DNA from: an uncultured bacterium
GTDB lineage: Bacteria > Bacteroidota > Bacteroidia > Bacteroidales > CAIXTV01
DNA: 40,045 bases
NCBI GenBank assembly: GCA_903922465.1
Contig: CAIXTV010000092.1
Location: forward strand, 1-40,045
Direction: 5' to 3'
Shown: positions 7,447 through 30,439 of the stretch, in pieces
Layout: each line of letters starts with the position of its first letter
Numbering within the stretch: position 1 is the first letter of the stretch
The notes under the pieces: generated by a model
Databases searched by the model: none
What the model saw: only the letters and a program-made list of their open reading frames with translations
What the model was told of the DNA's origin: nothing
Translations under genes and position numbers: made by a program

Positions 7447-7908
7447 AAAGCATTACCATTTCGAACAATAGTATTACCATGCTGAACAATAGTATGGGCA
7501 TTTTACACAATAGTATGGGCATTTTATGCAATAGTATTTCCATCCTGAAGAATAGTATGGGCATTTTATGCAATAGTATTTCCATCCTGAAGAATAGTAT
7601 GGGCATTTTACACCATAGTATGGGCATTTTATACAATAGTATCGCCATCCTGAACAATAGTATGGGCATTTTACACCATAGTATGGGCATTTTACGAAAT
7701 AGTATCACCATCCTGAACAATAGTATGGGCATTTTACACCATAGTATGGGCATTTTATGCAATAGTATCACCATCCTAAAGAATAGTATGGGCATTTTAC
7801 ACCATAGTATGGGCATTTTACGAAATAGTATGGGCATTCTGCAAAAATTCGCCTCAATCCTGAACAATAACATTACCATCCTACAAAATAGTATAAATAG
7901 TATAATTT
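7447..7908. repeat. 21-bp tandem array 1 (about 22 units)
   Basis: About 22 head-to-tail units of exactly 21 bases run between lptB and the CPBP gene. Most units start ATAGTAT (a dyad, ATA-G-TAT), then three variable bases, CAT, and an 8-base variable end. Two variants occur: A (GGGCATTTTA core) and B (CCATCCTGAA core). Their order, largely A-A-B, gives a 63-bp higher-order period. Variation is confined to fixed positions. Long ORFs exist on both strands because 21 is a multiple of three and no unit holds a stop in those frames; they are not considered genes. The ends (7447-7467 and 7846-7908) are degenerate. Confidence 0.95.
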
Positions 7909-18085: not shown

Positions 18086-19129
18086 ATGAAAGTAAACGGA
18101 AAAAATTATCGCACCATATGGATGGAAGATTCCACCGTTAAAATGATTGAGCAAACGCTTTTGCCTTTCGAATTTAAGATAATTGAATGTAATACCTATT
18201 CGGAGACCTGCGATGCCATTCGCACCATGATGGTGAGGGGTGCCGGCGCCATTGGTGCTGCCGCGGCTTTTGCTATGGCACAGGCTTTTATGCAAGCCCC
18301 TCCGACCGAAAGGGAGGCTTTTGTGTTGAAGGCACGCAAGGAAATTGAAGGCACGCGGCCTACGGCTCAAAACCTTTTTTATGCTGTTAACAGAGTGTTT
18401 AATGTGGGTGCTAACTCACTGGATGAGGCCATTGCCGAAGCCCAACGAATTTCGGATGAAGATGTTGAAGCCTCGCAAGCCATTGGGAAGTTTGGAAATG
18501 AATTGATTTATGACGGAATGGGCATTCTAACCCATTGTAACGCAGGTTGGCTTGCCTTTGTCGATTACGGAACTGCCTTATCTCCAATCTATACGGCTCA
18601 TCATGAAGGGAAGAAAGTGATGATATATGTCGATGAAACCCGTCCGCGAAGTCAGGGGGCAAGGCTCACGGCCTGGGAACTTCATAACGAAGGCGTGCCT
18701 CATGCCATTATTCCCGATAATGCCGCGGCCTATTTTATGTGGATAGGTAAAATTAAGATGGTTATTGTGGGTGCCGACCGCATTGCTGCCAATGGAGATG
18801 TTGCCAACAAAATCGGAACTTTCGGAAAAGCATTGGCCGCCAAAGCCTTAGGAATTCCTTTTTATGTTGCCGCTCCTTCGTCTACTTTCGACGAAAACTG
18901 CCCTTCAGGCAGAGATATTCCCATCGAATTCCGTTCGCCAAGCGAAGTGCACTACCAAAGCGGACCCGACAAAAGAGGTGTGCAGCACACCATCAGAGTA
19001 TGTTCGCCCACTTCGGAGGCAATGAACCCTGCCTTTGATGTGACTCCTGCCGAATATATCACCGGAATTATCACCGAAAAAGGAATCATACTTCCTAATG
19101 CCGAGGAAATCAAGAAATTGCTTGCCTGA
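18086..19129 (+). CDS. mtnA: 5-methylthioribose-1-phosphate isomerase
   Basis: A 347-residue aldose-ketose isomerase of the eIF2B-like family, converting 5-methylthioribose 1-phosphate to methylthioribulose 1-phosphate in methionine salvage. The MVRGAGAIGAAAAFAMA motif near residue 50, the catalytic cysteine C151 in THCNAG and the catalytic aspartate D231 in VGADRIAANGD are all present, as is the DETRPRSQGARLTAWEL segment. The length is normal. The stop overlaps the start of the downstream aldolase (TGATG), indicating translational coupling. No mtnB-mtnC-mtnD genes are visible. Confidence 0.96.
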   Translation: MKVNGKNYRTIWMEDSTVKMIEQTLLPFEFKIIECNTYSETCDAIRTMMVRGAGAIGAAAAFAMAQAFMQAPPTEREAFVLKARKEIEGTRPTAQNLFYAVNRVFNVGANSLDEAIAEAQRISDEDVEASQAIGKFGNELIYDGMGILTHCNAGWLAFVDYGTALSPIYTAHHEGKKVMIYVDETRPRSQGARLTAWELHNEGVPHAIIPDNAAAYFMWIGKIKMVIVGADRIAANGDVANKIGTFGKALAAKALGIPFYVAAPSSTFDENCPSGRDIPIEFRSPSEVHYQSGPDKRGVQHTIRVCSPTSEAMNPAFDVTPAEYITGIITEKGIILPNAEEIKKLLA

Positions 19130-19731
19130 TGAGAAGTGAAATTTATAGTGGAATTAAATATAAAGTAAACTTCATTTCCCGAAATATCCCTGAGGATGCG
19201 CGTTTGGAAGAACTAAAGCTTTGGTGTAGGAAGTTTCATGAATATAATTTAGCGCCCCCTTATCCTGGTGGTTCGGCGGGCAATTTGAGCTTTCGATTAA
19301 GCCCGGGGCAGCTCCCGTTTATCATTACAGGCACTGCTATGGGCCTGAAAGACAGTCCTGATAACAGCAAATTCGTTAGAGTTGAAAGTTGCGATGTTCT
19401 GGCGAAGGAGGTGAATGTGCATGGAGTCATCGAGCCCTCTTCCGAAACCATGTTGCATTATTCAATCTACAAGCAACGCCCCGATGTGGAGGCTATTTTT
19501 CACGGGCATTCCGACGAAATCATCGCCGCCACCGATGCTTTGCACATTCCTCAAACCAAAACCGCTGAACCCTATGGCAGCATTCAGTTGATTCATTCCG
19601 CCCTCGAAATCCTTGCCGATTATTCTTTTATTATGCTTCGTTCGCATGGATTTGTGGCTATGGGAAATTCTATGAAACAAACCGGAGATTTAGCTATTGA
19701 AATGTTGCTCAAAGCAAAGCCAAGGGTTTGA
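19129..19731 (+). CDS. Class II aldolase/adducin family protein, probable methylthioribulose-1-phosphate aldolase or dehydratase
   Basis: A 200-residue class II aldolase fold. Zinc ligands appear as H125 and H127 in FHGHSDE and H173 in RSHGF; the catalytic acid is probably E106 in PSSETMLH. The YPGGSAGNLSFR phosphate-binding loop is typical. Coupling to mtnA points to methylthioribulose 1-phosphate as substrate. Two outcomes are known for such mtnA partners: dehydration by MtnB, or aldol cleavage to DHAP and 2-methylthioacetaldehyde (the DHAP shunt). No MtnC or MtnD partner is present, so cleavage seems more likely, which is inference. It closes the operon; array 2 begins 109 bp later. Confidence 0.85.
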   Translation: MRSEIYSGIKYKVNFISRNIPEDARLEELKLWCRKFHEYNLAPPYPGGSAGNLSFRLSPGQLPFIITGTAMGLKDSPDNSKFVRVESCDVLAKEVNVHGVIEPSSETMLHYSIYKQRPDVEAIFHGHSDEIIAATDALHIPQTKTAEPYGSIQLIHSALEILADYSFIMLRSHGFVAMGNSMKQTGDLAIEMLLKAKPRV

Positions 19732-19839: not shown

Positions 19840-20344
19840 TTTAGGCTCCTGGTTTATGATTTCCGAGTCTTGGTGCGTGGCAACCGAGTCTTGGTGCGTG
19901 GCATCCGAGTCTTGGTGTGTGGCATCCGAGTCTTGGAGTGGAGCATCCGAGTCTTGGTTTATGGCATCCGAGTCTTGGAGTGGAGCATCCGAGTCTTGGA
20001 GTGTGGCAACCCAAGACTCGGATGGAGCAACCCAAGATTCGGATGGAGCAACCCAAGACTCGGTTACGGCAAACCAAGACTCGGATTACTCCATCCAGAC
20101 GTCGGTACGTGGCATCCAGACGTCGGTACGTGGCAACCAGATGTCGGGATGTGGCAACAAGACGTCTGAGTTTGATTTCCCGACGTCAGGATGGAGCATC
20201 CCGACGTCAGGATGGAGTAACCAGACGTCAGGATGGAGCGTATCGACGTCTGAGTGGAGCGTATCGACGTCCGAATGGAGCGTATCGACGTCCGAGTGGA
20301 GCATACCGACGTCCGGTTACGGCAAACCAAGAGCCATAAATTAT
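19840..20344. repeat. 21-bp tandem array 2 (24 units, inverting core)
   Basis: Twenty-four units; all are 21 bases except the one at 20071-20092 (22). Block 1 (19861-20007) has seven units with core CCGAGTCTTGG. Block 2 (20008-20092) has four units with CCAAGACTCGG or a one-base variant, the exact reverse complement. Block 3 (20093-20323) has eleven units centred on the palindrome GACGTC (one GATGTC). The linkers between cores come from a small set ending GGC or GAGC (TGCGTGGC, AGTGGAGC, TTTATGGC, TTACGGC, TACGTGGC). Both strands have long ORFs in several frames as a by-product. It lies between convergent genes (aldolase and tatC). Confidence 0.95.
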
Positions 20345-20721: not shown

Positions 20722-21594
20722 TTAACCTCCAAAGGCCTGCTCTTCTACTATGCCTTCTTCCTTTTCTCTTTGAGCTTTCTTACGGTAAACTCGTTTCGAA
20801 ACCACAATTCCAAGTTCATAAAGCATGATCAACGGAATTGCAACCAACGTCTGACTGAACATATCCACCGAAGGGGTTATGATGGCCGAAACGAAAAAGT
20901 TGACAACTATCGAATGCTTGCGATATTTCTTCAGAATGGCGGGAGTGAGTATTCCAAGTTTCGAGAGAAAATAGATCAAAACGGGCATTTCGAAAACCAA
21001 GCCAGTGGCAAGGGGCAGGGTGGTCACGGTGGAAATGTAGGAGCTGATGTTAATTTGGTTGACAATTTCGGTGCTCAACTCATAGGTGAGCAGAAAATTG
21101 ATGGTGAGGGGCAAGATGATGTAATAGCCAAACAAAACCCCTATGATAAACAGCAGTAGGATATAGAAAACCGTGATGCGCGAATATTTCACTTCGTGGT
21201 CGTAGAGGGCAGGCTTGATAAACAGCCACAACTGATAGAGCAAGAAAGGAATGGCAACAATGAGGCCCGCAATAAAAGAGATGAGTAGGTGAATCTTAAA
21301 TTGCCCCCCAACTTCGAGGTTGATGAGGTTGATATGGAGGTCGTTAATGCACAGCCCCGAAATGTTGAGACGTTCGCCTAAATCGCAAAGTACCCTATAG
21401 GTTATGAAATTGGAGTTTTTAGGACCGAGAATAATCACATCGAAAATGAAGCGTTTCATGAAAAACGCCCCAATGCTGAATGCAACCAATGCAAGAACAC
21501 TCCTGATGAGATATTTCCTGAAAACATCGATGTGTTCCCAGAAGTTTAGATCTTCAGAAGCTTTCTTTTCGGATTTACGGAACCACCTAAGCAT
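20722..21594 (-). CDS. tatC: TatC, twin-arginine translocase subunit
   Basis: A 290-residue membrane protein with six transmembrane segments. The family N-terminus is DLNFWEHIDVFRKYLIRSVLA, carrying the conserved acidic/His and Arg residues that read the twin-arginine signal. The FEMPVLIYFLSKLGIL segment (conserved E) and the F/Y-rich periplasmic loops fit. There is an insertion of about 30 residues in the first periplasmic loop (ITYRVLCDLGERLNISGL), common in Bacteroidota. The gap from tatA is 15 bases. It is the last gene of the run that starts with the cysteine-repeat peptide. Confidence 0.95.
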   Translation of the reverse strand: MLRWFRKSEKKASEDLNFWEHIDVFRKYLIRSVLALVAFSIGAFFMKRFIFDVIILGPKNSNFITYRVLCDLGERLNISGLCINDLHINLINLEVGGQFKIHLLISFIAGLIVAIPFLLYQLWLFIKPALYDHEVKYSRITVFYILLLFIIGVLFGYYIILPLTINFLLTYELSTEIVNQINISSYISTVTTLPLATGLVFEMPVLIYFLSKLGILTPAILKKYRKHSIVVNFFVSAIITPSVDMFSQTLVAIPLIMLYELGIVVSKRVYRKKAQREKEEGIVEEQAFGG

Positions 21595-30166: not shown

Positions 30167-30439
30167 ATTTCAAGAATGATAATTGCTGTTTGCAATAAGA
30201 AACGTGCCCCCTTCGAAACCTGGGGGAAGGTTTGTAATCTTAAAACTATCCCCTCCGATTTGTGGGGGAGCGTTAGGTAGTTTGAAACAGTCCCCTGTGA
30301 AGCGGATGGATTCGTTCGAAAGTTTGAAACTATCCCCTGCAAATCGCATGGAAACGATAGAAGTTTTCAAACTATCCATAGCAAAATACAGAGGCTTGTT
30401 CGCCTTTTGGAAGCTATCATCAGAAGAAATCATAAGTTT
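30167..30439. repeat. 21-bp-based tandem array 4 (42-bp composite units)
   Basis: Thirteen 21-base segments alternate between two types, giving a 42-bp period. Type A carries AGTTTGAAACTATC (near-palindrome AGTTT-G-AAACT; 30314-30334 is the best copy). Type B begins CCCT and ends in a G-rich stretch such as TGGGGGAAG or ATGGAAAC (for example 30335-30355). Outer units are diverged. It differs in sequence from arrays 1-3 but shares the two-turn period and a dyad core. It lies in the divergent gap between the unknown basic protein and the response regulator. Confidence 0.85.

Follow-up and report, generated by a model that had tools for sequence, protein, structure and literature searches.

A 21-bp tandem array with a flipped block in a Bacteroidales genome rich in arrays of the same period

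The window analysed here is the entire contig C92 (CAIXTV010000092.1; 40,045 bp) of an uncultured Bacteroidales bacterium, whose genome comprises 5.02 Mb in 312 contigs. Our subject is a tandem array of ~22 units of 21 bp (~500 bp) within this window, which is intergenic and lies between a convergent pair of genes, an aldolase-like gene (end at 19731) and tatC (3' end at 20722). The features of the locus are collected in Table 1. The original prediction, made from the sequence of the window, described seven units with the core CCGAGTCTTGG, four with its reverse complement or a one-base variant and eleven with GACGTC palindromes, at a constant 21-base spacing apart from one 22-base unit and with linkers drawn from a small set. 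Our unit table agrees with most of this description. The seven forward cores are followed by three copies of CCAAGACTCGG and one variant, CCAAGATTCGG (at 20032), which is one substitution away; the spacing is 21 bp at every step but 19989->20011, the junction of blocks 1 and 2, where it is 22 bp; and the 10-bp linkers recur. GACGTC is found in ten of the last eleven units, but the unit at 20137 carries GATGTC instead. A single insertion and a single deletion separate the core of block 3 from the others (compare CCAGACGTCGG with CCAAGACTCGG, or CCGACGTCTGG with CCGAGTCTTGG). The array does not resemble a clustered regularly interspaced short palindromic repeats (CRISPR) array, which has identical repeats and unique ~30-bp spacers: its linkers recur from a small set and its cores differ by block.

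Table 1 Features of the array and its flanking genes in the window
Feature	Coordinates	Strand	Remarks
Upstream gene, class II aldolase/adducin domain	19129..19731	+	Pfam PF00596, E 1.4e-18; converges on array
Left edge TTTAGGCTCCTGGTTTATGATTT	19840..19862	+	inverted-repeat-like vs right edge and vs 3' edge of sister array on C273
Block 1, seven 21-bp units, core CCGAGTCTTGG	19863..20009	+	core starts 19863 + 21k
Extra base, left junction of inverted block	20010..20010	+	sole 22-bp step, 19989->20011
Block 2, four 21-bp units, flipped core	20011..20094	+	CCAAGACTCGG at 20011, 20053, 20074; CCAAGATTCGG at 20032
Fully inverted unit, core + linker	20071..20096	-	16-bp and 11-bp exact reverse-complement matches to forward-type unit sequence
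Block 3, eleven 21-bp units	20095..20325	+	starts 20095 + 21k; GACGTC in 10, GATGTC in one (20137)
Right edge AAACCAAGAGCC	20324..20335	-	pairs with GGCTCCTGGTTT of left edge
Downstream gene tatC	20722..21594	-	Pfam PF00902, E 1.2e-62; converges on array

Because the core is already a quasi-palindrome, its forward and flipped forms differ at just three of 11 positions (3, 6 and 9), and the chance that three random substitutions produce precisely its reverse complement is about 1 in 4,455. The flipped core retains the non-complementary pair at positions 3/9, with G.T turned into A.C, so selection for symmetry is unnecessary for the flip; such selection would not require this pair and would tend to remove it. 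The inversion also reaches into a linker: read on the opposite strand, TTACTCCATCC at 20086-20096 is identical to 20210-20220. In block 2, local alignment places linkers 1-3 in forward orientation (8, 8 and 10 vs 5 for the reverse) and shows linker 4, bordering block 3, to be inverted (11 vs 5). Taken together with the additional base at the left junction, these orientations point to a single physical inversion spanning 26 bp or more (one unit), followed by tandem duplication. We searched 49 arrays of period 20-22 (481 units), drawn from this and other genomes, for other inverted cores, a check proposed with the original prediction, and found in-register inverted segments of at least 8 bp in this array only. 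Inverted pieces of 5-6 bp showed a mild excess in the other arrays (10 vs ~4 expected). The earlier claim that plain slippage does not suffice is thus upheld, and physical inversion best accounts for the exact reverse complement, the 49-array comparison and the linker orientations. The accompanying picture of a core inverting inside a constant frame is incomplete, as the linker at 20086-20096 was inverted as well.

A sister array on contig C273 (10469-10669) contains nine cores, all of them forward. It shares core and linker types with the array in the window, and the 3' edges of the two can be aligned. The left edge TTTAGGCTCCTGGTTTATGATTT finds matches with no mismatch only at its own site and at C273:10675-10694 on the minus strand, the next best match having 3 mismatches. 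The forward-only orientation of this sister array, with its shared unit types and 3' boundary, suggests, although it does not prove, that the flip is derived.

The array is probably a minisatellite, non-coding and intergenic, whose growth came from tandem duplication and in which one inversion was later amplified. The copied unit would have been a 21-bp quasi-palindrome, multiplied through replication slippage or unequal exchange. A one-time inversion would have turned one core together with its right-hand linker and left the extra base at the left junction, most likely through a template switch across short inverted arms in core and linkers. The arms at the locus are indeed short (CC/GG in the core; GGATG/CATCC or GGTTG/CAACC around GAG in the linkers). 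Tandem duplication of the forward linker plus the flipped core would then account for the four flipped cores, for the forward linkers that separate them and for the flipped linker at the right end only, and block 3 would have been amplified separately. We infer the order of these events, the template switching and the lack of a sequence-specific job for the array. The flip would represent a clear case of a small inversion trapped and amplified within a tandem array.

The flipped block is a mutation scar, and the more unusual part is the 21-base habit of the whole genome, which makes or keeps 21-bp arrays far more than same-order genomes sampled likewise. At the Tandem Repeats Finder thresholds chosen, on which the period and density figures depend, 627 kb of this genome contains 30 satellites (48/Mb), and the period of 26 of these is 20-22, 42, 63 or 84. 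The same criteria gave a single satellite in 527 kb from 29 of 40 same-order genomes, and it does not belong to the 21/42 class. The 627-kb sample consists of the first 20 kb at most of C1-C12 and C14-C54, minus contigs fetched for array hits, plus the window; C8 was retained despite its listing for a weak, non-array hit. The relatives, all of other families, contributed 40 stretches of <400 bases (short contigs) to 20 kb each, 11 genomes giving two. Extrapolation gives a genome total of ~200 arrays of the 21-bp class. These arrays are mostly unrelated in sequence, and those of the 21/42 class are nearly all intergenic. With simple longest-open-reading-frame (ORF) gene calls, and with the present array counted as two entries, the 38 entries of the class divide into 15 between codirectional, 8 between divergent and 4 between convergent genes, 2 that overlap a predicted ORF and 9 lacking a predicted gene on one flank, which is similar to the background gaps (189 codirectional, 74 divergent, 62 convergent). 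A preference for convergent gaps was therefore rejected, although both 21-bp arrays of the window lie in such gaps. The second of these (7456-7838; 18 units of unrelated sequence) lies between convergent ABC transporter and Rce1-like protease genes, and at 30279-30377 a short tandem repeat of 42 bp, in which no 21-bp substructure is clear, overlaps a small minus-strand ORF.

A length of 21 bp corresponds to two turns of B-DNA. A period of 21/42 bp, shared here by mostly unrelated sequences and nearly missing from the same-order genomes sampled likewise, makes it possible to test by comparative genomics what determines repeat-unit length, whether helix phasing, polymerase slippage, a nuclease or a packing protein. 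We tentatively raise the possibility, doubtful as it is, of a process in this lineage by which intergenic arrays, whatever their sequence, are made or kept at two (sometimes four) helix turns, in which duplication or DNA-packing machinery measuring 21 bp would sustain the arrays genome-wide and the flipped block would record its action on a quasi-palindromic unit. None of the titles and abstracts listed by our literature searches described a bacterial satellitome dominated by 21 bp, which does not establish that no such description exists.

Two small dispersed array families were found in the genome, one linked by GAGCATCC (C92, C273, C214, C187 and C22) and one with the 22-bp unit ATCCTGACC (C13, C84 and C119). 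Copies of the 22-bp family (ATCCTGACCTCCGTAACGTGGC) at L038:17417-17656, L040:36-145 and L041:14320-14429 are 93-97% identical between C13, C84 and C119. A homologous phylum-wide family of GGNGCATCC-linked arrays was rejected: 40 of 395 genomes match with free spacing, but among the matches listed just one genome besides this one has tandem 21-bp repeats. The scattered 21-bp arrays of other phyla may be chance picks from a large pool of such arrays. In a genome of the same class, there is a 21-bp array (L257:1385-1585) whose units, for example GCAACCCAAGTTCGGGAAGGG, bear some likeness to those with the flipped core. A phage or plasmid origin was rejected, as neither viral contigs nor phage or plasmid records gave a match, and Rfam yielded none.

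One reading frame is open across the whole array, which is common because the period is divisible by 3. The array is unlikely to code, although the open frame might conceivably be expressed. Variation is spread evenly over the three codon phases, the ORF through the array matches no Pfam family, and arrays of period 22 occur in the same genome; on these grounds, a heptad-repeat protein was rejected. Elsewhere, a search of genome contigs for aldolase relatives found none, and a profile search found CHU_C and Por_Secre_tail domains, established Bacteroidota-type secretion tails that assign the genome to that phylum.

Some observations weigh against a minisatellite shaped by copying and one amplified inversion. 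Block 1 has no variable core column, all 7 variable columns being among the 10 linker columns (p = 0.001), and neutral copying alone does not predict a core more conserved than its linker, a modest objection. Moreover, the 40 relatives searched are all of the same order and none is of the same genus or family, so the order of events is read indirectly. Core columns are likewise more conserved than the rest in 12 of the 15 dyad-bearing (paired-core) arrays (p = 0.003), and this evidence of constraint is modest because arrays within one family are not independent. Dyad symmetry is significant in 9 of the 38 entries, several of them interrelated, and we rejected a general dyad rule for 21-bp arrays on this count. 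Selection for a dyad core at fixed spacing, put forward in the original prediction as one way to the flip, thus finds weak support: core columns vary less than linkers, but the mismatched pair was kept and most entries are not dyad-symmetric. Spirochaetaceae and Treponema bins contain 21-bp arrays with strong palindromes (AAAAGGTATACCTTTT, CATAGAGTTCTATG; L064:356-556, L070:5772-6118 and L111:504-909). The dyads of some unrelated 21-bp arrays elsewhere, such as those of these bins, have p 0.006-0.013.

A single-strand fold of the locus is predicted to form an outer stem joining both edges, a long interrupted hairpin between blocks 1 and 2, and a block 3 hairpin, with an RNA folding energy of -275 kcal/mol. 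We compared it with column-permuted controls that preserve the 21-bp periodicity, as dinucleotide shuffles overstate the folding of tandem repeats. Blocks 1 and 2 gave z = -4.7, in keeping with the hairpin first proposed for them, and block 3 gave z = -3.2. None of ten other arrays or blocks reached p 0.05 in the same test, and we therefore attribute the hairpin to the flip and to GACGTC and do not see it as a property of the class. The locus might alternatively be an RNA hairpin element, a stabiliser or terminator at the 3' ends of two convergent transcripts, which the predicted fold and the position of both 21-bp arrays of the window between convergent genes would favour. Such a role is improbable, given that most of the other arrays have co-directional or divergent neighbours, that those tested fold no better than the null, and that an excess of terminators is absent.

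A binding-site array for a dimeric DNA-binding protein, which would read the dyad core from either side and on one helix face owing to the 21-bp spacing, would explain the conservation of the core relative to the linker and the period of two helical turns, and strong dyads do occur in some unrelated 21-bp arrays of other genomes. Yet the position of the arrays and the orientation of their neighbours follow the background, most arrays of the genome lack dyad symmetry, and since their units are mostly unrelated, no single sequence-specific protein could read them all; we regard such an array as rather unlikely. Less likely again is a minisatellite within a mobile element with inverted ends, akin to a miniature inverted-repeat transposable element (MITE) such as BrickBuilt of Porphyromonas gingivalis. 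The edges in the window are inverted-repeat-like, the left one recurs inverted at the 3' edge on C273, and dispersed families exist, but array edges taken overall resemble inverted repeats scarcely more than mismatched pairs do (mean 9.97 vs 9.23), and the window scores 15, below the 99% null level of 16. General terminal inverted repeats, barely above the null, were rejected; no common leader or tail was shown, and two Y1 transposase (Y1_Tnp) matches, on C60 and C279, are not near any array examined. Finally, an assembly artefact seems hardly credible. The assembly is fragmented, and 8 of the 38 array entries (e.g. L053, L152, L188, L194) lie within 36 bp of a contig end, where the assembly seems to break at arrays; the present array, however, lies inside its 40-kb contig, with distinguishable linkers and with junctions that tell a coherent history.

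Several known systems resemble the minisatellite with an amplified inversion that we favour. In yeast, inversion of a spacer between inverted-repeat arms by template switching has been documented (PMC8604942), and there too a short segment is swapped in place for its reverse complement; the yeast arms exceed 9 bp whereas the arms here are shorter, and the flipped piece here is longer and later multiplied in tandem. Subirana and Messeguer (2019; PMC6749651) define satellites as at least 4 tandem repeats of 10-200 nt, a class that includes our 22 units of 21 bp, and their paper describes non-coding satellites in Leptospira and Methanocella and unrelated ones scattered in Methanobrevibacter ruminantium. 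The bacterial maximum listed there is ~23/Mb against ~48/Mb here, with differing criteria, and in the parts consulted no single dominant period such as 21/42 is reported. Repetitive extragenic palindromic (REP) sequences and bacterial interspersed mosaic elements (BIMEs) are associated with a REP-associated tyrosine transposase (RAYT); the genome's two Y1_Tnp matches are those named above, away from the arrays. BrickBuilt (PMC4596501), a minisatellite/MITE with a 23-nt unit and a single sequence family with leader and tail, shares with the arrays described here the intergenic tandem organisation, a unit of about two helical turns, the phylum Bacteroidota and dispersal over the genome, its copy number being variable. 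Inverted ends of the BrickBuilt kind are not general here, the window's edge being common, in inverted orientation, to C273 only; moreover, the arrays of this genome repeat every 21 bp, their units are mostly unrelated, a leader or tail is not a general feature, and one block is flipped. Set beside these systems, the array is best placed among bacterial minisatellites, one marked by the scar of an inversion and lying in a genome that shows an unexplained leaning towards 21-bp periods.
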